The translations under genes and the position numbers were made by a program. A stretch of 64,000 nucleotides of DNA from Pagrus major. Lineage: Eukaryota; Chordata; Actinopteri; Spariformes; Sparidae. Below, one piece after another: positions 11,352 through 51,027 of the stretch; within the stretch, counting starts at the first letter, position 1, and every line of letters starts with the position of its first letter. Location: the NCBI RefSeq assembly GCF_040436345.1, contig NC_133238.1, positions 5,582,150 through 5,646,149 of the forward strand. The letters are read 5' to 3'. The notes under the pieces were generated by a model that saw only the letters and a program-made list of their open reading frames with translations, made no database searches and was not told the DNA's origin.

Positions 11352-11478
11352 CAGGGGAGAGCGCGGACGCAGTCCCCCACTACCACAAATTATGCAGTCG
11401 AGATTCCCACATTTGGGGAATTCGCAGGGGTCAGCACAACCGGAGTGCAATGGCTGAGCCTCGCCCTGGGTGAACCAC
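11352..11478 (-). pseudogene. U1 snRNA 3' part (nt 38-164), split by LINE copies A and B
   Basis: The 3' 127 nt of U1 copy 14. The break falls exactly before nt 38 (GTGG). The 5' part lies at 12780-12821, beyond two LINE fragments. Stem-loop I is destroyed, so no functional U1 is expected. Confidence 0.96.
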
Positions 11479-12389
11479 TTTTCACTTTTTAGAAGCTTTT
11501 ATTAATTTCAGTCAAAATTAGTTACAGACATACATTAATCCCACAATTAAAATTGCCCAACACCAAGTAGATATTCTAATCAAATAAATAATAGTTACAT
11601 TTCATTCAATAAACATTCTATTCAGCAGTTGTAACACCAAATAGATGTTCCATTCAGTTTTCTTAATTTTAAAAAAGATCCATTAAAGCAACAGGAATTT
11701 TGTCAGTTTTCCACCAGTTTTTCATTTCTTGATCATTATACTTAATTCTATCCCTAATGATGTAGTCCCTGACACCTGTAATGCCAACCTTTGCCACAGA
11801 ATCAGGTGAAATAGAGAGCTTTCTGAAGGCAGTTAGGTTTCTGCATTTCCAGATACCTTCTTTGACACAGTTGATGATTGCCCACCACCTTTCATTTCTG
11901 TCCTTTTCATCTGTCTCAATGTTTCCATATAAAACATCCATTTCATTAGGGGCTCTAAAAAGGTCTGTTAACCATGGATTTAGAATTTCCCACACTGCCC
12001 TTGAAACAGCGCATGACCAAAAGCAGTGGGCCACATCTTCACCATCATTACAATTTTTTATTGGACATTTAGCACTACGTGTGCATCGCCTTCTCAGTAA
12101 GAAGGCTCTTGTAGGGACACAATTTTGGGCTATCTTCCAGGCCAGGTCCTTATGTACATTGAACAAAAATGGTAAGTTTACATTTTTCCAAACTCTGATG
12201 CATTTGCTCTCAGGTAGGATACCTACCGGCACAAGGCTAGAGGTCGGGGGTGAAAGGCACCCCTCCACATCAACCCTATCTATTTTACCTACCACAGACC
12301 AATCTAACTTTGCTACTTTAAAGAGTGTTAATGCTCTCTCGTATAGAGCTGGTCTACTTTCAGCATTGGGCGTACAAAGAGAAACCCTT
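11479..12389 (-). mobile_element. U1-targeting Tx1-like LINE, copy A, 5'-truncated
   Basis: A 911-bp 3' fragment of the same LINE as the full-length copies. It holds the last roughly 240 codons of ORF2 and the 190-bp 3' UTR. The 5' truncation lies just after the KGKR stretch of ORF2, at a short match (ccct) with U1. U1 nt 38-49 (12 bp) follow on its 5' side and are repeated on its 3' side, forming a target-site duplication. Its sequence (for example SVVG, NPW) is closer to copies D and E than to C. Confidence 0.95.
11669..12389 (-). pseudogene. ORF2 C-terminal fragment in LINE copy A
   Basis: Encodes the C-terminal 240 or so residues of the LINE ORF2 protein, from RVSLCTPN to VALMDLF, including the CX4CX7HX4C zinc knuckle. 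The endonuclease and reverse transcriptase are missing through 5' truncation, so it is not functional alone. The open frame continues upstream by chance into the short U1 piece and copy B. Confidence 0.92.
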
Positions 12390-12401
12390 TGGGTGAACCA
12401 C
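12390..12401 (-). pseudogene. 12-bp U1 remnant (nt 38-49) between LINE copies A and B
   Basis: Plus strand tgggtgaaccac, the U1 piece duplicated when copy A inserted. Its left end adjoins the truncated 5' end of A, and its right end is the 3' junction of B. Confidence 0.92.
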
Positions 12402-12779
12402 TTTTTCACTTTTTAGAAGCTTTTATTAATTTCAGTCAAAATTAGTTACAGACATACATTAATCCCACAATTAAAATTGCCCAACACCAAGTAGATAATC
12501 TAATCAAATAAATAATAGTTACATTTCATTCAATAAACATTCTATTCAGCAGTTGTAACACCAAATAGATGTTCCATTCAGTTTTCTTAATTTTAAAAAA
12601 GATCCATTAAAGCAACAGGAATTTTGTCAGTTTTCCACCAGTTTTTCATTTCTTGATCATTATACTTAATTCTATCCCTAATGATGTAGTCCCTGACACC
12701 TGTAATGCCAACCTTTGCCACAGAATCAGGTGAAATAGAGAGCTTTCTGAAGGCAGTTAGGTTTCTGCATTTCCAGATA
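12402..12779 (-). mobile_element. U1-targeting Tx1-like LINE, copy B, 5'-truncated
   Basis: A 378-bp 3' fragment with the last 62 or so codons of ORF2 (12593-12779) and a 191-bp 3' UTR. The terminal A run is one base longer than in the other copies. It sits at the same U1 position as copy A, inside the duplicated target left by A, so it is the younger insertion. U1 nt 38-42 (5 bp) are duplicated around it. Confidence 0.94.
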
Positions 12780-12821
12780 ACCACCTTCTTGATCATGGTA
12801 TCTCCCCTGCCAGGTAAGTAT
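12780..12821 (-). pseudogene. U1 snRNA 5' part (nt 1-42) of split copy 14
   Basis: Keeps the 5' splice-site pairing sequence and half of stem-loop I, and still has its PSE upstream. Transcription from here would run into LINE copy B and then A in the sense direction. The spacer beyond is G type. Confidence 0.94.
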
Positions 12822-13466
12822 GAGTTGGAACAGTCTGACACAGGATGGCCTTTCCCAGGCTCAGCCCCCTGGCTGACGGTGCCTCTGGGGGGATAATAGC
12901 AGAGTTAGGTGCCTTGGGCAATTTGCTCATCCTCATTGGGCACTAAAAGTTGCTGCAAATTCAAAAACACTGGTGCGACTTGACGAGGGTGGCTGGTCCA
13001 CACATTGTGCCTGTTTTGTGTCCTTTTTCCAGCGATCCATCGCTCGGCAAAATAGAAAAATAACACTCCGTCAACAGCCACTTGGCATGATGTCTCCGCC
13101 CAGTCTGAATGCAACCAGAGACAATGTGCCGCACAAAAGCCTACCAGTAGGCATTCCAGCAATGGACGCGTCCAGACCACATTTCTTATGCAATGGCTCG
13201 CAGAGGAGGAGACGCAACAAGGTTTGTGCCGTCTCTAGCAGGCCACGCCCACTCTGCCCTTTTACCGGGAAAACGGGTAACCCGCACGCAACGCACTGCG
13301 ACACAGCAGACGCCGGTGTACTGCAACGCTGTGACTTTCAGGACGGATTGAAACGGTAACACAAGGACCCCAAAGCAGCATTCAGAGGTTGAAGGTTGGC
13401 TTTCCGAGCTGCTCGGCAGAAAGCGCGGGAGACGAGCACTCACTTGTTTTTCTTCCACATTGTCAT

Positions 13467-15248: not shown

Positions 15249-15893
15249 GAGTTGGAACAGTCTGACACAGGATGGCCTTTCCCAGGCTCAGCCCCCTGGC
15301 TGACGGTGCCTCTGGGGGGATAATAGCAGAGTTAGGTGCCTTGGGCAATTTGCTCATCCTCATTGGGCACTAAAAGTTGCTGCAAATTCAAAAACACTGG
15401 TGCGACTTGACGAGGGTGGCTGGTCCACACATTGTGCCTGTTTTGTGTCCTTTTTCCAGCGATCCATCGCTCTGCAAAATAGAAAAATAACACTCCGTCA
15501 ACGGCCACTTGGCATGATGTCTCCGCCCAGTCTGAATGCAACCAGAGACAATGTGCCGCACAAAAGCCTACCAGTAGGCATTCCAGCAATGGACACGTCC
15601 AGACCACATTTCTTATGCAATGCCTCGCAGAGGAGGAGACGCAACAAGGTTTGTGCCGTCTCTAGCAGGCCACGCCCACTCTGCCCTTTTACCGGGAAAA
15701 CGGGTAACCCGCACGCAACGCACTGCGACACAGCAGACGCCGGTGTACTGCAACGCTGTGACTTTCAGGACGGATTGAAACGGTAACACAAGGACCCCAA
15801 AGCAGCATTCAGAGGTTGAAGGTCGGCTTTCCGAGCTGCTCGGCAGAAAGCGCGGGAGACGAGCACTCACTTGTTTTTCTTCCACATTGTCAT

Positions 15894-16307
15894 CAGACAA
15901 ATAACACTCCGTCAACGGCCACTTGGCATGATGTCTCCGCCCAGTCTGAATGCAACCAGAGACAATGTGCCGCACAAAAGCCTACCAGTAGGCATTCCAG
16001 CAATGGACGCGTCCAGACCACATTTCTTATGCAATGCCTCGCAGAGGAGGAGACGCAACAAGGTTTGTGCCATCTCTAGCAGGCCACGCCCACTCTGCCC
16101 TTTTACCGGGAAAACGGGTAACCCGCACGCAACGCACTGCGACACAGCAGACGCCGGTGTACTGCAACGCTGTGACTTTCAGGACGGATTGAAACGGTAA
16201 CACAAGGACCCCAAAGCAGCATTCAGAGGTTGAAGGTTGGCTTTCCGAGCTGCTCGGCAGAAAGCGCGGGAGACGAGCACTCATTTGTTTTTCTTCCACA
16301 TTGTCAT
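15894..16307. repeat. U1-less 414-bp array unit
   Basis: Third unit with the same deletion junction and ac filler. It differs from the other two by gtgccatctc and by the gttggctt and actcattt markers, so it has exchanged sequence with other unit types since the deletion arose. Confidence 0.92.
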
Positions 16308-16471
16308 CAGGGGAGAGCGCGGACGCAGTCCCCCACTACCACAAATTATGCAGTCGAGATTCCCACATTTGGGGAATTCGCAGGGGTCAGCACAACCGGA
16401 GTGCAATGGCTGAGCCTCGCCCTGGGTGAACCACCTTCTTGATCATGGTATCTCCCCTGCCAGGTAAGTAT
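16308..16471 (-). ncRNA. U1 snRNA gene, copy 18
   Basis: Reference U1 sequence. G-type spacer. Confidence 0.97.
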
Positions 16472-21161: not shown

Positions 21162-21288
21162 CAGGGGAGAGCGCGGACGCAGTCCCCCACTACCACAAAT
21201 TATGCAGTCGAGATTCCCACATTTGGGGAATTCGCAGGGGTCAGCACAACCGGAGTGCAATGGCTGAGCCTCGCCCTGGGTGAACCAC
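21162..21288 (-). pseudogene. U1 snRNA 3' part (nt 38-164), split by LINE copy C
   Basis: U1 copy 24, interrupted by the full-length LINE at 21289-26649. The break is before nt 38, as in copy 14. The 5' part is at 26650-26683. Confidence 0.96.
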
Positions 21289-21473
21289 TTTTCACTTTTT
21301 AGAAGCTTTTATTAATTTCAGTCAAAATTAGTTACAGACATACATAAATCACACAATTACAATTACCCAACACCAAGTAGATATTCTAATCAAATAAATA
21401 ATAGTTACATTCAATAAACATTTCATTCAGCAGTTGTAACATCAAATAGATGTTCCATTCAGTTTCCTTAATT

Positions 21474-24400
21474 TTAAAAAAGATCCATTAAAGCAACAGG
21501 AATTTTGTCAGTTTTCCACCAATTTTTCATTTCTTGATCATTATACTTAATTCTATCCCTAATGATGTAGTCCCTGACACCTGTAATGCCAACCTTTGCC
21601 ACAGAATCAGGTGAAATAGAGAGCTTTCTGAAGGCAGTTAGGTTTCTGCATTTCCAGATACCTTCTTTGACACAGTTGATGATTGCCCACCACCTTTCAT
21701 TTCTGTCCTTTTCATCTGTCTCAATGTTTCCATATAAAACATCCATTTCATTAGGGGCTCTAAAAAGGTCTGTTAACCATGGTTTTAAAATTTCCCACAC
21801 TGCCCTTGAAACAGCGCATGACCAAAAGCAGTGAGCCACATCTTCACCATCATTACAATTTTTTATTGGACATTTAGCACTACGTGTGCATCGCCTTCTC
21901 AGCAAGAAGGCTCTTGTAGGGACACAATTTTGGGCTATCTTCCAGGCCAGGTCCTTATGTACATTGAACAAAAATGGTAAGTTTACATTTTTCCAAACTC
22001 TGATGCATTTGCTCTCAGGTAGGATACCTACCGGCACAAGGCTAGAGGTCGGGGGTGAAAGGCACCCCTCCACATCAACCCTATCTATTTTACCTAACAC
22101 GGACCAATCTAACTTTGCTACTTTAAAGAGTGTTAATGCTCTCTCGTATAGAGCTGGTCTACTTTCAGCATTGGGCGTACAAAGAGAAACCCTTTTACCC
22201 TTCCCTCTATACATCATGCGGCCTACCCAAAACTTGGCAAAATGAAACCAGAGACTGGTATTGCTCTCTGTAAAAACAGCATTCAAAATTGGTGTCAAAA
22301 AAAGGGCATCAAATTTGGCCCCCAACTCAGGTACAGCTTTCCCTCCTTTAACCAGAGGTTTGTACATGATGTCTCTTTTGACATGTTCTTGTTGGGAGCT
22401 CCAAATGAATTGAAACATGATGCGTCTCAAAGAGGTCAGGAATGTCTTGGGAGCTGGCAGAGTGGCCGCCAGAAAGGTCAAAGAGGCCAGAACCTCAGCC
22501 TTAATCACCAAAATTTTGCCAGTGAATGTTAGATCCCTCTGCTCCCACTGAAGCAATTTTCCTTTGATAGCTGGTAGTCTTGCTTCCCAATTTATTATTT
22601 CCATTCCCTTCCCAATTTCCACTCCCAAAATTTTTACCCTCTCTTCTTTTTCAACTAACCCTAAATCAGGCTTTCTTTCTGGCCAATTAAGGTAGAGGAT
22701 CTCACTCTTGGCCCGGTTCAGTTTGGCCCCAGATGCTTGAGAAAATTGCTCACTCCACTGGAGGGCTTTAACCATTGAATTATTGCTGGTACAAAGGATT
22801 GTCAAGTCATCCATATACAGGGACATTTTAGCCTCCTTTCCATTACTACCAGGGACAGGAAGGCCCCGAATATCAGTGTCATGTTTTATCCCACAGGCCA
22901 GAGGCTCCATGGCTAGTACAAACAGGCTGACTGATAGCGGGCATCCCTGTCTGACCCCTGCCTGGATCTTAATAGGTTCACTGAAGTGGCCATTAATGTT
23001 TACTCTACTAGAGCAATCAAAGTACAGTAAATTAATCCATGCCCTCAACTGTGGGCCGAACCCAAACCTCACCAGTGCTTCTTTGAGATACTCATGGCTT
23101 ATTCTATCAAAGGCTTTTTCTAAATCCAGGCCAGCAATACATAGGGGTACATTGCGATCTAAAGCATACAAGTATGAATCTCTTATTAAAGCAAGGTTAT
23201 CACTCATGGAGCGACCTGGAACCACACAGGTCTGCTCGACCCCAACCAACCTCTCTATCACCTCTTGTAGGCGAAGAAAGATTGCTTTTGCTAGAATCTT
23301 ACGATCAACACCAAGGAGAGTAAGGGGGCGCCAGTTTTTAAGATCTTTTTTTTCACCTTTCTTGAATAGAAGGGAAATGGTACCTTCCTTTAGGGATGGT
23401 GGTAACGACCCTAATTGGAGGCTCTCATTGTACATCTCCAAAAGAGGGGCCTTTAACTCTGCCCAGAAGGTAGTATAAAATTCTTTTGGCAACCCATCTG
23501 CCCCAGGGGCCTTGTTATTTTGCATGCTTTCTACTGCTTTGGTGAGTTCACTCAGAGATATTTTACTGTCAAGCTTCCCTTTAAATTCGTTAATATTTTT
23601 ATCTACTTTAGATAGAAGGTTTTCTAAAGCTGTCTTATCTAAATCTTCACTTTTGTAAAGATCAGAGTAGAAGGAGTGTACACAACTTAGTATCTCATGT
23701 ATTTCAGTTTTTTCTTGTCCCTCTTTATTCTTTAATCCTTCTATAAAGTTTTTAGGCCTAGCTAATTTCCTAAAAAAGTATCTAGAGCATTTTTCATTGT
23801 TTTCCATGTGGTGGACTCGGCTACGAATCAGTAGCCCCCGACTGGCCGCCGTGGAGAGGCGTAACATCTCTCTCTTCAATTGAGCTATATCCTCTGCAAC
23901 ATCTAGCCCGGCATAAGCCATTATATAAAATCTCTGCAGCTTTGCCTGATATTTCTGGAGCTTCAGACGTCTCTTTTTAGCAGTTCGTTTACCCACCTCT
24001 ATGAAAAAAGTTTTTGCCCTAACCTTGACTTCTTCCCACCATTCCCCCACAGAGTTGAAGGAGGGCTTAAGAGAGAGCCATTGGTTAAGCTTCACCTTAA
24101 AATCATTGACCACCTTTGCATCTTGTAGTAGGGAAATATTCAGCTTCCATGAACCTCTACCTTTTTTGATGTTTTCTTTAAACATGAGAGAACATTCAAT
24201 TTTATGATGGTCAGAGAAAAAAACTGGCGTGACTGCTGCATCTACAACCTGCAGCCCCCTTGATGTCAACAGAAAGTCTATTCTGGAATGGGTTCTGCCG
24301 TTGGACCAGGTATACCCAGGTAAACTCGGATTTTTTAAGCGGTAAACATCTAACAGTCTAAAATCTTTAATAATGTTTTTTAGGATTTCAGAACTGGAGT

Positions 24401-24899
24401 CCAGCCTTACTGTGGAGGTGGTTAACTTTTCTTTTTTGCTTACCAAGCAGTTGAAATCGCCACCCAGAATGACCTCTCTGTTACACAACAAAAGGGGTTG
24501 TAATTCTTTGAGCACTGTTAACCGTTCTCGGAGCTCAACAGGGCAATACACATTGATTACTCTTAACTTAGCGTTAAACAGTGAAACATCAACACATAGA
24601 ATTCTCCCATCTATCACACGTTGTACCTTCTGGATGATAAAATCATGCCCTCTAAATAATACTGCAACCCCTGAAGATCTGTTTTTGTTGTCGCCTGACC
24701 ATACTGATGGGCCGTGGCTCCATCTCTCCTCGAAGACCTTGTAATTCTCTCTATAGGATACATTACATTCTTGAAGTAGGAAGATGTCATTACCCTCTGA
24801 GTGTAGAAAAGTGAAGGCTGATGAGCACTTTACTGGGTCATTTAGTCCTCTAGTATTGAGGGATGCTATAGAGAGAGGAGCCATAGAAGTGCAGTTCAA
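21474..24899 (-). CDS. LINE ORF2: APE endonuclease and reverse transcriptase (copy C)
   Basis: Predicted 1141-aa protein that nicks the U1 gene and copies the element RNA into it by target-primed reverse transcription. The APE-type endonuclease spans about residues 8-240: N15, E44 in LLQEC, Y118, GGDFN at 146-150, RIDF at 206-209 and SDHH at 229-232. The reverse transcriptase spans about 450-750: NNKAPGADG near 461-469, PGRSMSDN near 561-568, LDLEKAFD at 591-598 with D592, GVRQGCPLS at 648-656, and YMDD at 695-698. Most L1-like RTs have FADD or YADD, so YMDD is a little unusual. A CCHC knuckle (C1010, C1015, H1023, C1028) lies near the C-terminus. It starts 40 nt after the ORF1 stop. A second ATG lies six codons in (MAPLS), and either could be the start. 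No stop or frameshift seen. Confidence 0.95.
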   Translation of the reverse strand: MNCTSMAPLSIASLNTRGLNDPVKCSSAFTFLHSEGNDIFLLQECNVSYRENYKVFEERWSHGPSVWSGDNKNRSSGVAVLFRGHDFIIQKVQRVIDGRILCVDVSLFNAKLRVINVYCPVELRERLTVLKELQPLLLCNREVILGGDFNCLVSKKEKLTTSTVRLDSSSEILKNIIKDFRLLDVYRLKNPSLPGYTWSNGRTHSRIDFLLTSRGLQVVDAAVTPVFFSDHHKIECSLMFKENIKKGRGSWKLNISLLQDAKVVNDFKVKLNQWLSLKPSFNSVGEWWEEVKVRAKTFFIEVGKRTAKKRRLKLQKYQAKLQRFYIMAYAGLDVAEDIAQLKREMLRLSTAASRGLLIRSRVHHMENNEKCSRYFFRKLARPKNFIEGLKNKEGQEKTEIHEILSCVHSFYSDLYKSEDLDKTALENLLSKVDKNINEFKGKLDSKISLSELTKAVESMQNNKAPGADGLPKEFYTTFWAELKAPLLEMYNESLQLGSLPPSLKEGTISLLFKKGEKKDLKNWRPLTLLGVDRKILAKAIFLRLQEVIERLVGVEQTCVVPGRSMSDNLALIRDSYLYALDRNVPLCIAGLDLEKAFDRISHEYLKEALVRFGFGPQLRAWINLLYFDCSSRVNINGHFSEPIKIQAGVRQGCPLSVSLFVLAMEPLACGIKHDTDIRGLPVPGSNGKEAKMSLYMDDLTILCTSNNSMVKALQWSEQFSQASGAKLNRAKSEILYLNWPERKPDLGLVEKEERVKILGVEIGKGMEIINWEARLPAIKGKLLQWEQRDLTFTGKILVIKAEVLASLTFLAATLPAPKTFLTSLRRIMFQFIWSSQQEHVKRDIMYKPLVKGGKAVPELGAKFDALFLTPILNAVFTESNTSLWFHFAKFWVGRMMYRGKGKRVSLCTPNAESRPALYERALTLFKVAKLDWSVLGKIDRVDVEGCLSPPTSSLVPVGILPESKCIRVWKNVNLPFLFNVHKDLAWKIAQNCVPTRAFLLRRRCTRSAKCPIKNCNDGEDVAHCFWSCAVSRAVWEILKPWLTDLFRAPNEMDVLYGNIETDEKDRNERWWAIINCVKEGIWKCRNLTAFRKLSISPDSVAKVGITGVRDYIIRDRIKYNDQEMKNWWKTDKIPVALMDLF

Positions 24900-24939
24900 A
24901 GGGGTGAAGAGGGTTAGTTCAGTGACAACTATGTAACAT

Positions 24940-26547: not shown

Positions 26548-26649
26548 GCTGGTCCTCTGGCCAGAAAGGAGCCGGTATGATATAGCCGCCGACGCTATTT
26601 ACTTTATTGTGCCCCATACACCGCTCGACAACAATAGAGTCAGTTGATA

Positions 26650-26683
26650 CTTGATCATGGTATCTCCCCTGCCAGGTAAGTAT
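26650..26683 (-). pseudogene. U1 snRNA 5' part (nt 1-34) of split copy 24
   Basis: Ends at CAAG, directly followed on the U1 strand by the 5' end of LINE copy C. The U1 promoter is intact and points into the LINE. The spacer of this unit lacks 135 bp near 26900. Confidence 0.95.
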
Positions 26684-37710: not shown

Positions 37711-37837
37711 CAGGGGAGAGCGCGGACGCAGTCCCCCACTACCACAAATTATGCAGTCGAGATTCCCACATTTGGGGAATTCGCAGGGGTCAGCACAACC
37801 GGAGTGCAATGGCTGAGCCTCGCCCTGGGTGAACCAC
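37711..37837 (-). pseudogene. U1 snRNA 3' part (nt 38-164), split by LINE copy D
   Basis: U1 copy 38. The 5' part is at 43204-43237. The break is before nt 38, as in the other split copies. Confidence 0.96.
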
Positions 37838-38027
37838 TTTTCACTTTTTAGAAGCTTTTATTAATTTCAGTCAAAATTAGTTACAGACATACATTAATCC
37901 CACAATTACAATTGCCCAACACCAAGTAGATATTCTAATCAAATAAATAATAGTTACATTTCATTCAATAAACATTCTATTCAGCAGTTGTAACACCAAA
38001 TAGATGTTCCATTCAGTTTTCTTAATT

Positions 38028-41000
38028 TTAAAAAAGATCCATTAAAGCAACAGGAATTTTGTCAGTTTTCCACCAGTTTTTCATTTCTTGATCATTATAC
38101 TTAATTCTATCCCTAATGATGTAGTCCCTGACACCTGTAATGCCAACCTTTGCCACAGAATCAGGTGAAATAGAGAGCTTTCTGAAGGCAGTTAGGTTTC
38201 TGCATTTCCAGATACCTTCTTTGACACAGTTGATGATTGCCCACCACCTTTCATTTCTGTCCTTTTCATCTGTCTCAATGTTTCCATATAAAACATCCAT
38301 TTCATTAGGGGCTCTAAAAAGGTCTGTTAACCATGGATTTAGAATTTCCCACACTGCCCTTGAAACAGCGCATGACCAAAAGCAGTGGGCCACATCTTCA
38401 CCATCATTACAATTTTTTATTGGACATTTAGCACTACGTGTGCATCGCCTTCTCAGTAAGAAGGCTCTTGTAGGGACACAATTTTGGGCTATCTTCCAGG
38501 CCAGGTCCTTATGTACATTGAACAAAAATGGTAAGTTTACATTTTTCCAAACTCTGATGCATTTGCTCTCAGGTAGGATACCTACCGGCACAAGGCTAGA
38601 GGTCGGGGGTGAAAGGCACCCCTCCACATCAACCCTATCTATTTTACCTACCACAGACCAATCTAACTTTGCTACTTTAAAGAGTGTTAATGCTCTCTCG
38701 TATAGAGCTGGTCTACTTTCAGCATTGGGCGTACAAAGAGAAACCCTTTTACCCTTCCCTCGATACATCATGCGGCCTACCCAAAACTTGGCAAAATGAA
38801 ACCAGAGACTGGTATTGCTCTCTGTAAAAACCGCATTTAAAATTGGTGTCAAAAAAAGGGCATCAAATTTGGCCCCCAACTCAGGTACAGCTTTCCCTCC
38901 TTTAACCAGAGGTTTGTACATGATGTCTCTTTTGACATGTTCTTGTTGGGAGCTCCAAATGAATTGAAACATGATGCGTCTCAAAGAGGTCAGGAATGTC
39001 TTGGGAGCTGGCAGAGTGGCTGCCAGAAAGGTCAAAGAGGCCAGAACCTCAGCCTTAATCACCAAAATTTTGCCAGTGAATGTTAGATCCCTCTCCTCCC
39101 ACTGAAGCAATTTCCCTTTGATAGCTGGTAATCTTGTTTCCCAATTTATGATTTCCATTCCCTTCCCAATTTCCACTCCCAAAATTTTTACCCTCTCTTC
39201 TTTTTCAACCAACCCTAAATCAGGCTTTCTTTCTGGCCAATTAAGGTAGAGGATCTCACTTTTGGCCCGGTTCAGTTTGGCCCCAGATGCTTGAGAAAAT
39301 TGCTCACTCCACTGGAGGGCTTTAACCATTGAATTATTGCTGGTACAAAGGATTGTCAAGTCATCCATATACAGGGACATTTTAGCCTCCTTTCGATTAC
39401 TACCAGGGACAGGAAGGCCCCGAATATCAGTGTCATGTTTTATCCCACAGGCCAGAGGCTCCATGGCTAGTACAAACAGGCTGACTGATAGCGGGCATCC
39501 CTGTCTGACCCCTGACTGGATCTTAATAGGTTCACTGAAGTGGCCATTAATGTTTACTCTACTAGAGCAATCAAAGTACAGTAAATTAATCCATGCCCTC
39601 AACTGTGGGCCAAACCCAAACCTCACCAGTGCTTCTTTGAGATACTCATGGCTTATTCTATCAAAGGCTTTTTCTAAATCCAGGCCAGCAATACATAGGG
39701 GTACATTGCGATCTAAAGCATACAAGTATGAATCTCTTATTAAAGCAAGGTTATCACTCATGGAGCGACCTGGAACCACACAGGTCTGCTCGACCCCAAC
39801 CAACCTCTCTATCACCTCTTGTAGGCGAAGAAAGATTGCTTTTGCTAGAATCTTACGATCAACACCAAGGAGTGTAAGGGGGCGCCAGTTTTTAAGATCT
39901 TTTTTCTCACCTTTCTTAAATAGAAGGGAAATGGTACCTTCCTTTAGGGATGGTGGTAACGACCCTAATTGGAGGCTCTCATTGTACATCTCCAAAAGAG
40001 GGGCCTTTAACTCTGCCCAGAAGGTAGTATAAAATTCTTTTGGCAACCCATCTGCCCCAGGGGCCTTGTTATTTTGCATGCTTTCTACTGCTTTGGTGAG
40101 TTCACTCAGAGATATTTTACTGTCAAGCTTCCCTTTAAATTCGTTAATATTTTTATCTACTTTAGATAGAAGGTTTTCTAAAGCTGTCTTATCTAAATCT
40201 TCACTTTTGTAAAGATCAGAGTAGAAGGAGTGTACACAACTTAGTATCTCATGTATTTCAGTTTTTTCTTGTCCCTCTTTATTCTTTAATCCTTCTATAA
40301 AGTTTTTAGGCCTAGCTAATTTCCTAAAAAAGTATCTAGAGCATTTTTCATTGTTTTCCATGTGGTGGACTCGGCTACGAATCAGTAGCCCCCGACTGGC
40401 CGCCGTAGAGAGGCGTAACATCTCTCTCTTCAATTGAGCTATATCCTCTGCAACATCTAGCCCGGCATAAGCCATTATATAAAATCTCTGCAGCTTTGCC
40501 TGATATTTCTGGAGCTTCAGACGTCTCTTTTTAGCAGTTCGTTTACCCACCTCTATGAAAAAAGTTTTTGCCCTAATCTTGACTTCTTCCCACCATTCCC
40601 CCACAGAGTTGAAGGAGGGCTTAAGAGAGAGCCATTGGTTAAGCTTCACCTTAAAATCATTGACCACCTTTGCATCTTGTAGTAGGGAAATATTCAGCTT
40701 CCATGAACCTCTACCTTTTTTGATGTTTTCTTTAAACATGAGAGAACATTCAATTTTATGATGGTCAGAGAAAAAAACTGGCGTGACTGCTGCATCTACA
40801 ACCTGCAGCCCCCTTGATGTCAACAGAAAGTCTATTCTGGAATGGGTTCTGCCGTTGGACCAGGTATACCCAGGTAAACTCGGATTTTTTAAGCGGTAAA
40901 CATCTATCAGTCTAAAATCTTTAATAATGTTTTTTAGGATTTCAGAACTGGAGTCCAGCCTTACTGTGGAGGTGGTTAACTTTTCTTTTTTGCTTACCAA

Positions 41001-41453
41001 GCAGTTGAAATCGCCACCCAGAATGACCTCTCTGTTACACAACAAAAGGGGTTGTAATTCTTTGAGCACTGTTAACCGTTCTCGGAGCTCAACAGGGCAA
41101 TACACATTGATTACTCTTAACTTAGCGTTAAACAGTGAAACATCAACACATAGAATTCTCCCATCTATCACACGTTGTACCTTCTGGATGATAAAATCAT
41201 GCCCTCTAAATAATACTGCAACCCCTGAAGATCTGTTTTTGTTGTCGCCTGACCATACTGATGGGCCGTGGCTCCATCTCTCCTCGAAGACCTTGTAATT
41301 CTCTCTATAGGATACATTACATTCTTGAAGTAGGAAGATGTCATTACCCTCTGAGTGTAGAAAAGTGAAGGCTGATGAGCACTTTACTGGGTCATTTAGT
41401 CCTCTAGTATTGAGGGATGCTATAGAGAGAGGAGCCATAGAAGTGCAGTTCAA
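38028..41453 (-). CDS. LINE ORF2: APE endonuclease and reverse transcriptase (copy D)
   Basis: 1141 aa, same domains and catalytic residues as in copy C. It differs from C at I183, I293, S647, R687, T773 and E787, and at SVVG and NPW near the C-terminus. R687, just before the YMDD strand, is private to this copy. None of these changes touches a known catalytic residue. Confidence 0.95.
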   Translation of the reverse strand: MNCTSMAPLSIASLNTRGLNDPVKCSSAFTFLHSEGNDIFLLQECNVSYRENYKVFEERWSHGPSVWSGDNKNRSSGVAVLFRGHDFIIQKVQRVIDGRILCVDVSLFNAKLRVINVYCPVELRERLTVLKELQPLLLCNREVILGGDFNCLVSKKEKLTTSTVRLDSSSEILKNIIKDFRLIDVYRLKNPSLPGYTWSNGRTHSRIDFLLTSRGLQVVDAAVTPVFFSDHHKIECSLMFKENIKKGRGSWKLNISLLQDAKVVNDFKVKLNQWLSLKPSFNSVGEWWEEVKIRAKTFFIEVGKRTAKKRRLKLQKYQAKLQRFYIMAYAGLDVAEDIAQLKREMLRLSTAASRGLLIRSRVHHMENNEKCSRYFFRKLARPKNFIEGLKNKEGQEKTEIHEILSCVHSFYSDLYKSEDLDKTALENLLSKVDKNINEFKGKLDSKISLSELTKAVESMQNNKAPGADGLPKEFYTTFWAELKAPLLEMYNESLQLGSLPPSLKEGTISLLFKKGEKKDLKNWRPLTLLGVDRKILAKAIFLRLQEVIERLVGVEQTCVVPGRSMSDNLALIRDSYLYALDRNVPLCIAGLDLEKAFDRISHEYLKEALVRFGFGPQLRAWINLLYFDCSSRVNINGHFSEPIKIQSGVRQGCPLSVSLFVLAMEPLACGIKHDTDIRGLPVPGSNRKEAKMSLYMDDLTILCTSNNSMVKALQWSEQFSQASGAKLNRAKSEILYLNWPERKPDLGLVEKEERVKILGVEIGKGMEIINWETRLPAIKGKLLQWEERDLTFTGKILVIKAEVLASLTFLAATLPAPKTFLTSLRRIMFQFIWSSQQEHVKRDIMYKPLVKGGKAVPELGAKFDALFLTPILNAVFTESNTSLWFHFAKFWVGRMMYRGKGKRVSLCTPNAESRPALYERALTLFKVAKLDWSVVGKIDRVDVEGCLSPPTSSLVPVGILPESKCIRVWKNVNLPFLFNVHKDLAWKIAQNCVPTRAFLLRRRCTRSAKCPIKNCNDGEDVAHCFWSCAVSRAVWEILNPWLTDLFRAPNEMDVLYGNIETDEKDRNERWWAIINCVKEGIWKCRNLTAFRKLSISPDSVAKVGITGVRDYIIRDRIKYNDQEMKNWWKTDKIPVALMDLF

Positions 41454-41493
41454 AGGGGTGAAGAGGGTTAGATCAGTGACAACTATGTAACAT

Positions 41494-43101
41494 CTACTTT
41501 TTCTTAATTATCTTCTTTTTCTTTGGTTTCACATCTCTTTCCACCTTTCTTGACATGTCTTTTATCTGTGTTGTAGATGTAAAAGCAACTACAACATCTT
41601 GCTCAAGAAAGGGGTTTGATGTGGGGGAGGAAACGGGCCAGTTGGAATGAGGTAACACAGAAGAGGTCGAGGGGGAGGATTCACCTGATGGGGGGGACTC
41701 ATTTACCCGTTTTCTTGAAGGAGAGTCCACTGTGTCTGGTACCAAGGTGGTGGCAATGGGAAGGGGCAAAGAGGTCAGTAAGGATTGGGAGGCATCTTCA
41801 TCCCGTTCCATGGAGGTCTGGGAGCTGAGATCTGGCACTGATGCAAGGTTGACTGTAGATGTTGACCTCGGGCGTTGGCCATCCAATGATGAGGAGGCAG
41901 ATGAGTCTGGTCCCTGATGGATGGTGATGATTGGCAGCAGGGATGTTGAGCCCTCAACTTCCTTGAAGAGAGAATTGGCCGTTGGTTCTTGTTTCAAGGT
42001 AGCTGCATGAGGAGAGATGCTAGCCAGCAGGTTGTCCAGACGGTTCCCTGCCTCCTGTAGAGTCATCGGTGTCAACTCTGTCCTTGAGCTGGAGCCAGGT
42101 TCGGGAGGATGGTCTGCTTGATGGAAAGCAGTGAGGTCCATTGTGGAGGCAGGGGAGTTGAACGCTTCGTCGTCATTCTCTAATAGCCCAGCGCTCCAGT
42201 CCAAGACTCGTGTTCCCTCTTGTACCTCCTCCTCCAGGTCCAACACCGGTTCTTCACTTGGCTGTTGGAGTGCAGGGCCAGATGGCTGTCGCACTGGGCT
42301 TGTATGTTGAGAGGGCGCCTGATTGTTGCCAGAGTTTTCAGCAATGTGGTCTTGGCCTAAAGAAACAATTGATCTTACTGTGGACAGTTTCAGCCGGTTG
42401 GAGTATGCTTGAGGGCAGTCTTTAAAGCGATGTTGGGCTGAGGCACAGAGATTGCATTTTACAGGGGTTGGACATTGGGCTGTTGTATGGTCGAATGCTT
42501 TGCAGTTCCTGCAGAGGTCCACCGTACATGCAGCAGCCAGATGTTCTAGGCTGCCGCATTTACGACATTCTTTTGGCTGACCAGAGTAGAACACAGACCC
42601 TCTGAAGGCTCCCAACTGGATGTTGCTTGGGAGATGCTGGAGGACCCCCTGTCGCCTTATGAGACGCACTTGAAATCGTCTGGTGCCTGTCTTGATTCCA
42701 TCTATGTCAACAACTTCCATGGCATGAATCACCTCACAGTACCGAGCCATCCATGTCCAAACATCCTGGTTCCTGACTCTCTCAGAGAAAATCATTACAT
42801 GTACTGTTTTCAGGTCTCTCTCTGCCAAAGGTGACATAATAATGTTCTTGAAGCTTGTTGTTGACTTTTTCTTGATTTCAAACTTTTCCAGGCAACTTTC
42901 GTAGTATCGTGTTGTTGTAAATATCACCTCAAAGATCTTCTTACCCGGAAATGCAAAAACGTAGTCAAGCTGGTTGGTGGAAATGCCAAGTTCTTTTTGC
43001 AAAATCTGTCTGCTGAATTGCAGCCGGTCCATCTGAAGATCTTCCAGAAGGTCGAAGCGGACAGCATTCCTGCGGTTGGCTTGATTGTTTCCTAACGCCA
43101 T
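41494..43101 (-). CDS. LINE ORF1: triple-CCHC nucleic-acid-binding protein (copy D)
   Basis: 535 aa with all three CX2CX4HX4C knuckles kept. Differences from copy C include N160, L196 and F203, plus three changes in the disordered region (KEVEG, PDLSS, ERDED). L196 and F203 lie in or beside knuckle 2 but not on its ligands. Confidence 0.92.
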   Translation of the reverse strand: MALGNNQANRRNAVRFDLLEDLQMDRLQFSRQILQKELGISTNQLDYVFAFPGKKIFEVIFTTTRYYESCLEKFEIKKKSTTSFKNIIMSPLAERDLKTVHVMIFSERVRNQDVWTWMARYCEVIHAMEVVDIDGIKTGTRRFQVRLIRRQGVLQHLPSNIQLGAFRGSVFYSGQPKECRKCGSLEHLAAACTVDLCRNCKAFDHTTAQCPTPVKCNLCASAQHRFKDCPQAYSNRLKLSTVRSIVSLGQDHIAENSGNNQAPSQHTSPVRQPSGPALQQPSEEPVLDLEEEVQEGTRVLDWSAGLLENDDEAFNSPASTMDLTAFHQADHPPEPGSSSRTELTPMTLQEAGNRLDNLLASISPHAATLKQEPTANSLFKEVEGSTSLLPIITIHQGPDSSASSSLDGQRPRSTSTVNLASVPDLSSQTSMERDEDASQSLLTSLPLPIATTLVPDTVDSPSRKRVNESPPSGESSPSTSSVLPHSNWPVSSPTSNPFLEQDVVVAFTSTTQIKDMSRKVERDVKPKKKKIIKKK

Positions 43102-43203
43102 GCTGGTCCTCTGGCCAGAAAGGAGCCGGGATGATATAGCCGCCGACGCTATTTACTTTATTGTGCCCCATACACCGCTCGACAACAATAGAGTCAGTTG
43201 ATA

Positions 43204-43237
43204 CTTGATCATGGTATCTCCCCTGCCAGGTAAGTAT
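43204..43237 (-). pseudogene. U1 snRNA 5' part (nt 1-34) of split copy 38
   Basis: Ends at CAAG against the 5' end of LINE copy D. It keeps its PSE upstream. The spacer has gttggctt and actcattt. Confidence 0.95.
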
Positions 43238-44855: not shown

Positions 44856-45500
44856 GAGTTGGAACAGTCTGACACAGGATGGCCTTTCCCAGGCTCAGCC
44901 CCCTGGCTGACGGTGCCTCTGGGGGGATAATAGCAGAGTTAGGTGCCTTGGGCAATTTGCTCATCCTCATTGGGCACTAAAAGTTGCTGCAAATTCAAAA
45001 ACACTGGTGCGACTTGACGAGGGTGGCTGGTCCACACATTGTGCCTGTTTTGTGTCCTTTTTCCAGCGATCCATCGCTCGGCAAAATAGAAAAATAACAC
45101 TCCGTCAACGGCCACTTGGCATGATGTCTCCGCCCAGTCTGAATGCAACCAGAGACAATGTGCCGCACAAAAGCCTACCAGTAGGCATTCCAGCAATGGA
45201 CACGTCCAGACCACATTTCTTATGCAATGCCTCGCAGAGGAGGAGACGCAACAAGGTTTGTGCCGTCTCTAGCAGGCCACGCCCACTCTGCCCTTTTACC
45301 GGGAAAACGGGTAACCCGCACGCAACGCACTGCGACACTGCAGACGCCGGTGTACTGCAACGCTGTGACTTTCAGGACGGATTGAAACGGTAACACAAGG
45401 ACCCCAAAGCAGCATTCAGAGGTTGAAGGTCGGCTTTCCGAGCTGCTCGGCAGAAAGCGCGGGAGACGAGCACTCACTTGTTTTTCTTCCACATTGTCAT

Positions 45501-45627
45501 CAGGGGAGAGCGCGGACGCAGTCCCCCACTACCACAAATTATGCAGTCGAGATTCCCACATTTGGGGAATTCGCAGGGGTCAGCACAACCGGAGTGCAAT
45601 GGCTGAGCCTCGCCCTGGGTGAACCAC
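45501..45627 (-). pseudogene. U1 snRNA 3' part (nt 38-164), split by LINE copy E
   Basis: U1 copy 41. The 5' part is at 50994-51027. Same break position as the other split copies. Confidence 0.96.
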
Positions 45628-45817
45628 TTTTCACTTTTTAGAAGCTTTTATTAATTTCAGTCAAAATTAGTTACAGACATACATTAATCCCACAATTAAA
45701 ATTGCCCAACACCAAGTAGATATTCTAATCAAATAAATAATAGTTACATTTCATTCAATAAACATTCTATTCAGCAGTTGTAACACCAAATAGATGTTCC
45801 ATTCAGTTTTCTTAATT

Positions 45818-48800
45818 TTAAAAAAGATCCATTAAAGCAACAGGAATTTTGTCAGTTTTCCACCAGTTTTTCATTTCTTGATCATTATACTTAATTCTAT
45901 CCCTAATGATGTAGTCCCTGACACCTGTAATGCCAACCTTTGCCACAGAATCAGGTGAAATAGAGAGCTTTCTGAAGGCAGTTAGGTTTCTGCATTTCCA
46001 GATACCTTCTTTGACACAGTTGATGATTGCCCACCACCTTTCATTTCTGTCCTTTTCATCTGTCTCAATGTTTCCATATAAAACATCCATTTCATTAGGG
46101 GCTCTAAAAAGGTCTGTTAACCATGGATTTAGAATTTCCCACACTGCCCTTGAAACAGCGCATGACCAAAAGCAGTGGGCCACATCTTCACCATCATTAC
46201 AATTTTTTATTGGACATTTAGCACTACGTGTGCATCGCCTTCTCAGTAAGAAGGCTCTTGTAGGGACACAATTTTGGGCTATCTTCCAGGCCAGGTCCTT
46301 ATGTACATTGAACAAAAATGGTAAGTTTACATTTTTCCAAACTCTGATGCATTTGCTCTCAGGTAGGATACCTACCGGCACAAGGCTAGAGGTCGGGGGT
46401 GAAAGGCACCCCTCCACATCAACCCTATCTATTTTACCTACCACAGACCAATCTAACTTTGCTACTTTAAAGAGTGTTAATGCTCTCTCGTATAGAGCTG
46501 GTCTACTTTCAGCATTGGGCGTACAAAGAGAAACCCTTTTACCCTTCCCTCGATACATCATGCGGCCTACCCAAAACTTGGCAAAATGAAACCAGAGACT
46601 GGTATTGCTCTCTGTAAAAACCGCATTTAAAATTGGTGTCAAAAAAAGGGCATCAAATTTGGCCCCCAACTCAGGTACAGCTTTCCCTCCTTTAACCAGA
46701 GGTTTGTACATGATGTCTCTTTTGACATGTTCTTGTTGGGAGCTCCAAATGAATTGAAACATGATGCGTCTCAAAGAGGTCAGGAATGTCTTGGGAGCTG
46801 GCAGAGTGGCTCCCAGAAAGGTCAAAGAGGCCAGAACCTCAGCCTTAATCACCAAAATTTTGCCAGTGAATGTTAGATCCCTCTCCTCCCACTGAAGCAA
46901 TTTCCCTTTGATAGCTGGTAATCTTGTTTCCCAATTTATGATTTCCATTCCCTTCCCAATTTCCACTCCCAAAATTTTTACCCTCTCTTCTTTTTCAACC
47001 AACCCTAAATCAGGCTTTCTTTCTGGCCAATTAAGGTAGAGGATCTCACTTTTGGCCCGGTTCAGTTTGGCCCCAGATGCTTGAGAAAATTGCTCACTCC
47101 ACTGGAGGGCTTTAACCATTGAATTATTGCTGGTACAAAGGATTGTCAAGTCATCCATATACAGGGACATTTTAGCCTCCTTTCCATTACTACCAGGGAC
47201 AGGAAGGCCCCGAATATCAGTGTCATGTTTTATCCCACAGGCCAGAGGCTCCATGGCTAGTACAAACAGGCTGACTGATAGCGGGCATCCCTGTCTGACC
47301 CCTGACTGGATCTTAATAGGTTCACTGAAGTGGCCATTAATGTTTACTCTACTAGAGCAATCAAAGTACAGTAAATTAATCCATGCCCTCAACTGTGGGC
47401 CAAACCCAAACCTCACCAGTGCTTCTTTGAGATACTCATGGCTTATTCTATCAAAGGCTTTTTCTAAATCCAGGCCAGCAATACATAGGGGTACATTGCG
47501 ATCTAAAGCATACAAGTATGAATCTCTTATTAAAGCAAGGTTATCACTCATGGAGCGACCTGGAACCACACAGGTCTGCTCGACCCCAACCAACCTCTCT
47601 ATTACCTCTTGTAGGCGAAGAAAGATTGCTTTTGCTAGAATCTTACGATCAACACCAAGGAGTGTAAGGGGGCGCCAGTTTTTAAGATCTTTTTTCTCAC
47701 CTTTCTTAAATAGAAGGGAAATGGTACCTTCCTTTAGGGATGGTGGTAACGACCCTAATTGGAGGCTCTCATTGTACATCTCCAAAAGAGGGGCCTTTAA
47801 CTCTGCCCAGAAGGTAGTATAAAATTCTTTTGGCAACCCATCTGCCCCAGGGGCCTTGTTATTTTGCATGCTTTCTACTGCTTTGGTGAGTTCACTCAGA
47901 GATATTTTACTGTCAAGCTTCCCTTTAAATTCGTTAATATTTTTATCTACTTTAGATAGAAGGTTTTCTAAAGCTGTCTTATCTAAATCTTCACTTTTGT
48001 AAAGATCAGAGTAGAAGGAGTGTACACAACTTAGTATCTCATGTATTTCAGTTTTTTCTTGCCCCTCTTTATTCTTTAATCCTTCTATAAAGTTTTTAGG
48101 CCTAGCTAATTTCCTAAAAAAGTATCTAGAGCATTTTTCATTGTTTTCCATGTGGTGGACTCGGCTACGAATCAGTAGCCCCCGACTGGCCGCCGTGGAG
48201 AGGCGTAACATCTCTCTCTTCAATTGAGCTATATCCTCTGCAACATCTAGCCCGGCATAAGCCATTATATAAAATCTCTGCAGCTTTGCCTGATATTTCT
48301 GGAGCTTCAGACGTCTCTTTTTAGCAGTTCGTTTACCCACCTCTATGAAAAAAGTTTTTGCCCTAATCTTGACTTCTTCCCACCATTCCCCCACAGAGTT
48401 GAAGGAGGGCTTAAGAGAGAGCCATTGGTTAAGCTTCACCTTAAAATCATTGACCACCTTTGCATCTTGTAGTAGGGAAATATTCAGCTTCCATGAACCT
48501 CTACCTTTTTTGATGTTTTCTTTAAACATGAGAGAACATTCAATTTTATGATGGTCAGAGAAAAAAACTGGCGTGACTGCTGCATCTACAACCTGCAGCC
48601 CCCTTGATGTCAACAGAAAGTCTATTCTGGAATGGGTTCTGCCGTTGGACCAGGTATACCCAGGTAAACTCGGATTTTTTAAGCGGTAAACATCTATCAG
48701 TCTAAAATCTTTAATAATGTTTTTTAGGATTTCAGAACTGGAGTCCAGCCTTACTGTGGAGGTGGTTAACTTTTCTTTTTTGCTTACCAAGCAGTTGAAA

Positions 48801-49243
48801 TCGCCACCCAGAATGACCTCTCTGTTACACAACAAAAGGGGTTGTAATTCTTTGAGCACTGTTAACCGTTCTCGGAGCTCAACAGGGCAATACACATTGA
48901 TTACTCTTAACTTAGCGTTAAACAGTGAAACATCAACACATAGAATTCTCCCATCTATCACACGTTGTACCTTCTGGATGATAAAATCATGCCCTCTAAA
49001 TAATACTGCAACCCCTGAAGATCTGTTTTTGTTGTCGCCTGACCATACTGATGGGCCGTGGCTCCATCTCTCCTCGAAGACCTTGTAATTCTCTCTATAG
49101 GATACATTACATTCTTGAAGTAGGAAGATGTCATTACCCTCTGAGTGTAGAAAAGTGAAGGCTGATGAGCACTTTACTGGGTCATTTAGTCCTCTAGTAT
49201 TGAGGGATGCTATAGAGAGAGGAGCCATAGAAGTGCAGTTCAA
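45818..49243 (-). CDS. LINE ORF2: APE endonuclease and reverse transcriptase (copy E)
   Basis: 1141 aa. It shares I183, I293, S647, T773 and E787 with copy D, keeps G687 as in C, and has a private G811. Endonuclease, YMDD and C-terminal CCHC residues are all present. Confidence 0.95.
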   Translation of the reverse strand: MNCTSMAPLSIASLNTRGLNDPVKCSSAFTFLHSEGNDIFLLQECNVSYRENYKVFEERWSHGPSVWSGDNKNRSSGVAVLFRGHDFIIQKVQRVIDGRILCVDVSLFNAKLRVINVYCPVELRERLTVLKELQPLLLCNREVILGGDFNCLVSKKEKLTTSTVRLDSSSEILKNIIKDFRLIDVYRLKNPSLPGYTWSNGRTHSRIDFLLTSRGLQVVDAAVTPVFFSDHHKIECSLMFKENIKKGRGSWKLNISLLQDAKVVNDFKVKLNQWLSLKPSFNSVGEWWEEVKIRAKTFFIEVGKRTAKKRRLKLQKYQAKLQRFYIMAYAGLDVAEDIAQLKREMLRLSTAASRGLLIRSRVHHMENNEKCSRYFFRKLARPKNFIEGLKNKEGQEKTEIHEILSCVHSFYSDLYKSEDLDKTALENLLSKVDKNINEFKGKLDSKISLSELTKAVESMQNNKAPGADGLPKEFYTTFWAELKAPLLEMYNESLQLGSLPPSLKEGTISLLFKKGEKKDLKNWRPLTLLGVDRKILAKAIFLRLQEVIERLVGVEQTCVVPGRSMSDNLALIRDSYLYALDRNVPLCIAGLDLEKAFDRISHEYLKEALVRFGFGPQLRAWINLLYFDCSSRVNINGHFSEPIKIQSGVRQGCPLSVSLFVLAMEPLACGIKHDTDIRGLPVPGSNGKEAKMSLYMDDLTILCTSNNSMVKALQWSEQFSQASGAKLNRAKSEILYLNWPERKPDLGLVEKEERVKILGVEIGKGMEIINWETRLPAIKGKLLQWEERDLTFTGKILVIKAEVLASLTFLGATLPAPKTFLTSLRRIMFQFIWSSQQEHVKRDIMYKPLVKGGKAVPELGAKFDALFLTPILNAVFTESNTSLWFHFAKFWVGRMMYRGKGKRVSLCTPNAESRPALYERALTLFKVAKLDWSVVGKIDRVDVEGCLSPPTSSLVPVGILPESKCIRVWKNVNLPFLFNVHKDLAWKIAQNCVPTRAFLLRRRCTRSAKCPIKNCNDGEDVAHCFWSCAVSRAVWEILNPWLTDLFRAPNEMDVLYGNIETDEKDRNERWWAIINCVKEGIWKCRNLTAFRKLSISPDSVAKVGITGVRDYIIRDRIKYNDQEMKNWWKTDKIPVALMDLF

Positions 49244-49283
49244 AGGGGTGAAGAGGGTTAGTTCAGTGACAACTATGTAACAT

Positions 49284-50891
49284 CTACTTTTTCTTAATTA
49301 TCTTCTTTTTCTTTGGTTTCACATCTCTTTCCACCTTTCTTGACATGTCTTTTATCTGTGTTGTAGATGTAAAAGCAACTACAACATCTTGCTCAAGAAA
49401 GGGGTTTGATGTGGGGGAGGAAACGGGCCAGTTGGAATGAGGTAACACAGAAGAGGTCGAGGGGGAGGATTCACCTGATGGGGGGGACTCATTTACCCGT
49501 TTTCTTGAAGGAGAGTCCACTGTGTCTGGTACCAAGGTGGTGGCAATGGGAAGGGGCAAAGAGGTCAGTAAGGACTGGGAGGCATCTTCAGCCCGTTCCA
49601 TGGAGGTCTGGGAGCTGGGATCTGGCACTGATGCAAGGTTGACTGTAGATGTTGACCTCGGGCGTTGGCCATCCAATGATGAGGAGGCAGATGAGTCTGG
49701 TCCCTGATGGATGGTGATGATTGGCAGCAGGGATGTTGAGCCCTCAACTTCCTCGAAGAGAGAATTGGCCGTTGGTTCTTGTTTCAAGGTAGCTGCATGA
49801 GGAGAGATGCTAGCCAGCAGGTTGTCCAGACGGTTCCCTGCCTCCTGTAGAGTCATCGGTGTCAACTCTGTCCTTGAGCTGGAGCCAGGTTCGGGAGGAT
49901 GGTCTGCTTGATGGAAAGCAGTGAGGTCCATTGTGGAGGCAGGGGAGTTGAATGCTTCGTCGTCATTCTCTAATAGCCCAGCGCTCCAGTCCAAGACTCG
50001 TGTTCCCTCTTGTACCTCCTCCTCCAGGTCCAACACCGGTTCTTCACTTGGCTGTTGGAGTGCAGGGCCAGATGGCTGTCGCACTGGGCTTGTATGTTGA
50101 GAGGGCGCCTGATTGTTGCCAGAGTTTTCAGCAATGTGGTCTTGGCCTAAAGAAACAATTGATCTTACTGTGGACAGTTTCAGCCGGTTGAAGTATGCTT
50201 GAGGGCAGTCTTTAAAGCGATGTTGGGCTGAGGCACAGAGATTGCATTTTACAGGGGTTGGACATTGGGCTGTTGTATGGTCGAATGCTTTGCAGTTCCT
50301 GCAGATGTCCACCGTACATGCAGCAGCCAGATGTTCTAGGCTGCCGCATTTACGACATTCTTTTGGCTGACCAGAGTAGAACACAGACCCTCTGAAGGCT
50401 CCCAACTGGATGGTGCTTGGGAGATGCTGGAGGACCCCCTGTCGCCTTATGAGACGCACTTGAAATCGTCTGGTGCCTGTCTTGATTCCATCTATGTCAA
50501 CAACTTCCATGGCATGAATCACCTCACAGTACCGAGCCATCCATGTCCAAACATCCTGGTTCCTGACTCTCTCAGAGAAAATCATTACATGTACTGTTTT
50601 CAGGTCTCTCTCTGCCAAAGGTGACATAATAATGTTCTTGAAGCTTGTTGTTGACTTTTTCTTGATTTCAAACTTTTCCAGGCAATTTTCGTAGTATCGT
50701 GTTGTTGTAAATATCACCTCAAAGATCTTCTTACCCGGAAATGCAAAAACGTAGTCAAGCTGGTTGGTGGAAATGCCAAGTTCTTTTTGCAAAATCTGTC
50801 TGCTGAATTGCAGCCGGTCCATCTGAAGATCTTCCAGAAGGTCGAAGCGGACAGCATTCCTGCGGTTGGCTTGATTGTTTCCTAACGCCAT
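49284..50891 (-). CDS. LINE ORF1: triple-CCHC nucleic-acid-binding protein (copy E)
   Basis: 535 aa, three CCHC knuckles kept. Differences from copy C are N69, F203 (shared with D) and F234, the last just after knuckle 3. Otherwise the disordered region matches C more than D, so ORF1 and ORF2 of the three copies do not give the same tree. Confidence 0.92.
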   Translation of the reverse strand: MALGNNQANRRNAVRFDLLEDLQMDRLQFSRQILQKELGISTNQLDYVFAFPGKKIFEVIFTTTRYYENCLEKFEIKKKSTTSFKNIIMSPLAERDLKTVHVMIFSERVRNQDVWTWMARYCEVIHAMEVVDIDGIKTGTRRFQVRLIRRQGVLQHLPSTIQLGAFRGSVFYSGQPKECRKCGSLEHLAAACTVDICRNCKAFDHTTAQCPTPVKCNLCASAQHRFKDCPQAYFNRLKLSTVRSIVSLGQDHIAENSGNNQAPSQHTSPVRQPSGPALQQPSEEPVLDLEEEVQEGTRVLDWSAGLLENDDEAFNSPASTMDLTAFHQADHPPEPGSSSRTELTPMTLQEAGNRLDNLLASISPHAATLKQEPTANSLFEEVEGSTSLLPIITIHQGPDSSASSSLDGQRPRSTSTVNLASVPDPSSQTSMERAEDASQSLLTSLPLPIATTLVPDTVDSPSRKRVNESPPSGESSPSTSSVLPHSNWPVSSPTSNPFLEQDVVVAFTSTTQIKDMSRKVERDVKPKKKKIIKKK

Positions 50892-50993
50892 GCTGGTCCT
50901 CTGGCCAGAAAGGAGCCGGTATGATATAGCCGCCGACGCTATTTACTTTATTGTGCCCCATACACCGCTCGACAACAATAGAGTCAGTTGATA

Positions 50994-51027
50994 CTTGATC
51001 ATGGTATCTCCCCTGCCAGGTAAGTAT
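50994..51027 (-). pseudogene. U1 snRNA 5' part (nt 1-34) of split copy 41
   Basis: Ends at CAAG against the 5' end of LINE copy E. The PSE of this unit carries the -53 change (plus strand ggcggacgg), shared with copy 44. The far spacer has gatctgctcgg. Confidence 0.95.

Follow-up and report, generated by a model that had tools for sequence, protein, structure and literature searches.

A LINE of Tx1-group kind probably targets one nucleotide of U1 snRNA genes in the fish Pagrus major

By 2015, the only elements reported from small nuclear RNA (snRNA) genes were Keno and Utopia in U2, Dada-U1 and Dada-U6 (PMC4640811). Keno is a U2-specific long interspersed element (LINE) with an endonuclease of the apurinic/apyrimidinic type (APE), found in several animals (PMC4640811). 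In ray-finned fish, U1 genes are the target of Dada-U1 (PMC3706591, PMC8869645), and two LINEs of zebrafish, Mutsu in 5S rRNA and Dewa in the tRNA-Leu spacer, are specific for small RNA gene targets (PMC3706591). Here we describe a LINE that interrupts U1 snRNA genes in a 64,000-nucleotide stretch of Pagrus major DNA (the window; NCBI RefSeq assembly GCF_040436345.1, contig NC_133238.1, here C24, positions 5,582,150 to 5,646,149 of the forward strand).

The minus strand of the window is a tandem U1 array with a unit of 809 bp (164 bp of U1 plus 645 bp of spacer, as a first-pass annotation made by a model from the letters had estimated). The array spans about 202 kb (C24:5436167-5638031), its low end reaching at least as far as an assembly gap. 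Using a 16-mer for U1 5' ends (at most one mismatch) and a search for nt 38-60 (at most two mismatches), we counted 184 U1 5' ends in the 256 kb of C24:5390001-5646149. The host array keeps 174 uninterrupted genes with nt 38-60 at the right distance beside nine interrupted by the element, and one 5' end runs into the assembly gap. The window contains 47 U1 5' ends, one fewer than the 48 loci first reported, comprising 43 genes uninterrupted over the whole model and four interrupted ones.

Ten copies of the LINE lie in the array, five of them in the window, and all have the orientation of U1. In every copy the A-tail directly precedes U1 G38 (GTGG), with tails of 4, 5 or 7 nucleotides; nine of these junctions were found by one array scan, and that of copy D, which is followed only by U1 nt 38-49, was read separately. 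The first-pass annotation had placed all five window copies in U1 genes, in U1 orientation and with the 3' junction before nt 38, and we found exactly this in 5/5 (A4-5, then GTGG). It had also proposed mapping the genomic copies by their 3' flanks, and 10/10 of these begin at U1 nt 38.

The 5' junctions are more varied. Full-length copies start after U1 nt 34, with nt 35-37 lost, whereas copy D starts after nt 42-43, copy E after nt 48-49, and copies G and I after nt 50-54, where GGCG is common to target and element. The array thus holds 5' junctions of at least four kinds, and three of these show target duplications and 1-4 nt of microhomology. Because these junctions differ, the nt 38 site does not represent one insertion multiplied by the array, and the minimum number of independent insertions at U1 nt 38 is four. 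By simple arithmetic, the chance that three further events would hit the nucleotide of the first one in an 809-bp unit is ~(1/809)^3, which bears out the earlier view that such precision is not accidental. That view had been based on five copies, however, and not all of these are independent events: 17 positions separate copies A and B, and the case for precision comes from the different 5' junctions across the array.

Duplication within the array has clearly contributed, which raises the alternative that a generic LINE without target specificity entered a U1 gene a single time and was multiplied by unequal crossing-over or conversion. Consistent with this, the long copies differ by only 0-50 substitutions and form two subfamilies, and the six full-length copies have one common 5' junction, save for a T or G at the start (T-ATCAAC in four, G-ATCAAC in two). 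Copies F and H are near-duplicates (no substitutions; one and no differences in the two flanks). Copies G and I have the same junction, and their upstream flanks differ only once in 1,500 bp; they were counted as one event. Their bodies nevertheless differ at 37 positions, which suggests that copies have recombined or converted one another. A single landing accounts neither for the variety of 5' junctions (four or more, with differing duplications and two in the same gene) nor for A-tails of three lengths, and a generic LINE would be expected to leave copies elsewhere in the genome, where we found none, although at least 14 distant L1-like ORF2 matches occur on 11 contigs. We therefore regard this explanation as very unlikely.

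Further support comes from a pair of 5'-truncated copies in the window, placed back to back at the same nucleotide of one U1 gene. Reading along the minus strand, on which all features below also lie, U1 nt 1-43 (12779-12821) is followed by copy D (12402-12778), U1 nt 38-49 (GTGGTTCACCCA; 12390-12401), copy E (11479-12389) and U1 nt 38-164 (11352-11478). Copy D has GTGGTT (nt 38-43) at both flanks, giving a duplication of 5-6 bp with one ambiguous base, and the target-site duplication of copy E is 11-12 bp. What the pair implies for recognition depends on the order of the two insertions. Had D been inserted first, nt 1-37 of U1 would not be needed (or the element end would mimic them) and nt 38 onward would suffice; had E been first, U1 past nt 49 would be dispensable and nt 1-49 sufficient.

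The three other window copies are full-length. Copy A (45628-50993; 5,366 bp counted through the final A, both open reading frames (ORFs) open) lies between U1 nt 1-34 (50994-51027; nt 35-37, AAG, are missing) and nt 38-164 (45501-45627). Copy B (37838-43203; 17 substitutions relative to A) is flanked in the same way by nt 1-34 (43204-43237) and nt 38-164 (37711-37837), as is copy C of the second subfamily (21289-26649; 41 substitutions relative to A; flanks 26650-26683 and 21162-21288). Across the array there are six full-length copies, two without approximately the first 100 nt and two that are strongly 5'-truncated.

Copy A has a 5' untranslated region (UTR) of 102 nt, followed by ORF1 (49284-50891; 535 aa), whose product has two RNA-binding domains of ZCCHC3 type plus a CCHC zinc knuckle. 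ORF2 (45818-49228; 1,136 aa from the first ATG, or 1,141 aa if counted from an upstream TTG) encodes an APE endonuclease and a reverse transcriptase (RT; YMDD), with a zf-RVT-like C-terminus scoring 27.1 bits against a Pfam cut-off of 27.5. The 3' UTR (45628-45817) has AATAAA ~20 nt ahead of the A-tail and ends in AAAAAGTG(A)4. The best PDB sequence match of ORF2 was L1 ORF2p (residues 7-863, E = 3.4e-87), and the PDB entries matched by ORF1 were all zinc knuckles. In NCBIfam, no model matched ORF1 and two matched ORF2, both below cut-off. The predicted structure of ORF2 had a mean pLDDT of 67.5 and a pTM of 0.52. We also considered a 5' self-cleaving ribozyme of the R2-like (HDV-like) type and rejected it, since no ribozyme family matched at E ≤ 1 in window positions 45400-51700; the structured-RNA matches there besides U1 were three weak ones far below cut-offs.

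An APE-type endonuclease and an RT in one ORF, an A-tail, and 5' truncation with target-site duplication identify the element as an APE-type LINE. The Tx1 group is defined by an L1-type ORF2 together with an ORF1 carrying a CCHC zinc knuckle, and the U1 element has both, its ORF1 with the ZCCHC3-type domains in addition. L1 itself, which supplied the best match of solved structure, inserts at dispersed TTTT/AA-like sites; the U1 element differs in being site-specific and in its ORF1. On sequence grounds, the element is very probably a target-specific LINE with an APE-type endonuclease that belongs to the Tx1-group kind, is a relative of Keno without being Keno itself, and inserts at one nucleotide of U1 snRNA genes.

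Keno resembles the U1 element in its APE endonuclease and RT, a target near the snRNA 5' end, insertion in gene orientation and an A-tail at the 3' junction (PMC4640811). Mutsu and Dewa, also Tx1-clade families, have other targets. Utopia is similar in that its target is an snRNA gene, its 3' boundaries are precise while the 5' ones vary, and tandem insertions occur occasionally, but it has a restriction-like endonuclease and targets U2, in contrast to APE and U1 here (PMC4640811). Dada-U1 is a DNA transposon with a DDE transposase, a GCGAAT/GCGAAC duplication and another position in U1 (PMC3706591, PMC8869645); the U1 element has neither this transposase nor the GCGAAT duplication described for Dada-U1 (PMC3706591). 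No U1-specific LINE was found in the open literature, in keeping with the earlier suggestion of a new family or a new target; Repbase and most subscription papers were outside the scope of this search, and a name that exists only in a database is possible. The best reading is that U1 is a new target for a LINE of a known, Tx1-group-like kind.

To place the element in its genome, we searched 786 Mb, using a DNA search that skips very common words. The 3'-terminal 201 bp gave ten matches (all 10 candidates scored) and the 3' 1,001 bp likewise ten, in both cases all in the array, so the possibility that copies lie mostly outside U1 was not borne out. The exact A-tail/U1 junction pattern AAAGTGGTTCACCCAGGGCGAGGC occurred nine times in the genome, all in the array, and its reversed control did not occur. 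A search with ORF2 (E ≤ 1e-20) listed 41 matches, with 40 of 4,734 candidates scored: 10 from the U1 element (all in the array), 16 from a second family, one relic and 14 more distant ones spread over eleven contigs, which we read as L1-like. Given the fraction of candidates scored, distant families are undercounted. The relic (C24:2048158-2049306, 3.4 Mb from the array) has a broken ORF2 of 53% identity and was, among the ORF2 matches listed, the only one outside the array closer than 37%.

The same restriction could arise if the element inserted in many places and the U1 array were a surviving refuge, other copies having been removed by selection. In favor of a refuge, uninterrupted U1 genes exist elsewhere, which indicates that the target sequence alone is no guarantee of insertions. 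Nine further U1 genes were read on C13 (n = 1), C2 (n = 4), C10 (n = 1) and C22 (n = 3), all with the nt 1-64 of the array genes, and since only 42 of 10,000 U1 candidates were scored, more U1 loci may exist. For four or more separate events to place the 3' junction at exactly the same base, however, site recognition is needed and not retention alone, and we consider the refuge explanation highly improbable.

Several observations nonetheless weigh against strict targeting of U1 by the element. None of the nine U1 genes on C2, C10, C13 and C22 carries the exact A-tail junction; U1 sequence alone may therefore not explain the restriction to the C24 array, in which copy number, selection or the setting within an array may play a part. 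There may have been only four independent events. Although both frames are open in five of the eight long copies (A, B, C, G and I), the ORFs are damaged in F, H and J, and the ORF1 start codon is missing in G and I. Finally, the placement of all ten copies at U1 nt 38 comes from one genome, and the relatives at 49-74% identity are proteins without DNA flanks.

These relatives place the U1 element apart from Keno-type proteins. It formed a clade with 100% support that included 16 other ORF2 proteins of the tree (49-65% identical), separate from the clade (99-100%) of a U2-joined copy of the second P. major family; the Takifugu protein Q76B34 also lay apart from the U1 element. A quick tree of 64 sequences and a careful tree of 36 agreed on this separation, and an earlier 61-row tree without the U2-joined element, from which eight partial or composite proteins were left out, agreed as well. 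The trees were midpoint-rooted, used a simple model and hand-chosen rows without Repbase references, and gave warnings about letter make-up. A joint clade of Keno-type, Xenopus and Pleurodeles proteins, the would-be sister of the U1 clade, had support of 82/83. The relatives at 49-74% come mostly from short contigs of apparently environmental sources, and composite gene models with stretches of 60-66% identity are annotated in Dissostichus and Epinephelus. Translated U1 flanks were found inside none of 120 related proteins. Prokaryote genomes yielded two distant loci (30-31%) in bacterial bins from 54 pattern stretches, and viral contigs no related locus among 228 pattern stretches.

The second family begins close by, with its first ORF2 match ~11 kb past the U1 array. 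Its ORF2 is 35% identical to that of the U1 element over 1,092 aa; in the copy joined to U2 the frame is open over the stretch read and 76% identical to Q76B34, which we take to be a published target-specific element. A search with the 3' end gave 17 genome matches (13 at C24:5.65-5.79 Mb, three at C24:1.87-1.89 Mb and one on C22). For one of the 17 we read the 3' end, which is built like that of the U1 element: it has AATAAA and an A-tail followed by TCTGTTCTTATCAG, a U2 sequence (Rfam E = 1.1e-24). We take this junction to be nt 39 of U2, the Keno site, by our assumed U2 numbering, as against nt 38 of U1 for the element described here. This placement also rests on Utopia-disrupted U2 genes, which lack the 5' 38 bp, and on the 3' flanks of Utopia, which are identical to those of Keno (PMC4640811). 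Judged from that single 3' end, U1 and U2 genes, each with LINEs of their own, appear to adjoin on C24. The 13 Keno-type 3' ends cluster at C24:5649002-5794508, starting ~3 kb past the window end. On C22, three U1 genes (C22:18498022-18506174) have a diverged (80%) Keno-type 3' end ~2.2 kb off.

This proximity invites the reading that the U1 element is a Keno member whose target was recently switched or relaxed. Each of the two elements occupies a site close to where an snRNA gene begins, and U1 nt 28-34 (GATCAAG) presumably recurs as U2 nt 25-31. The heptamer lies 3 nt from the 3' junction in U1 as opposed to 7 nt in U2 (again by assumed U2 numbering), and because of this difference GATCAAG is no more than a lead as a common recognition motif. 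With 35% ORF2 identity and a position outside the clade of the U2-joined element, the U1 element does not group with Keno, and any split between the two must be old given separate clades with 99-100% support each. A recent switch from Keno is very unlikely.

If the element is indeed U1-specific, its insertion could proceed as follows. The endonuclease would nick the bottom strand of U1 where the complement of nt 37 meets that of nt 38 (CCAC^CTTC, written along the nicked strand). The 3'-OH on the nt 38 side would then serve as the primer for reverse transcription of the element RNA, starting at its poly(A) tail (target-primed reverse transcription). A loosely placed top-strand cut, 3 nt upstream (full-length copies, nt 35-37 lost) or ~5-17 nt downstream (truncated copies), would complete the insertion, and unequal exchange and conversion in the array may then duplicate and mix copies. 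More speculatively, the position of the element behind U1 nt 1-34, with the orientation of U1, raises the possibility that the U1 promoter transcribes it. The nt 37/38 site is presumably at the 3' edge of the stem-loop I loop bound by U1-70K, so no working U1 would be expected from interrupted genes. A broader scenario seems possible but rather doubtful: the whole clade would be old and U1-specific, paired beside the U2 Keno clade by a split in target choice, with the U1 promoter in use and the end AAAAAGTG(A)n a fossil of an earlier A-tail/U1 GTG junction, implying that the RNA was polyadenylated just inside the target. U1, which finds 5' splice sites, would join the short list of RNA genes that serve LINEs as havens. 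The U1 element and its nearby U2 cousin would offer a natural comparison for how APE endonucleases acquire targets, and the former is a candidate means of inserting DNA at a defined site of a conserved multicopy gene.

Within the array, the first 164 nt are identical in 157 of the 184 U1 copies. A G28A variant of U1 is present in 10 copies, two of which are in the window (positions 3398 and 20489). Three window units contain a tandem duplication of a 414-bp spacer piece (403-1232, 2435-3264 and 15481-16310), and 24 spacings of 1,223 bp (809 + 414) across the array presumably reflect the same duplication. Beyond the array, the plus strand of the window carries a 688-aa open frame (61936-63999), for which there was no Pfam match at E ≤ 0.001, and an ORF with a DUF6729 domain (59870-60463; E = 1.1e-26).

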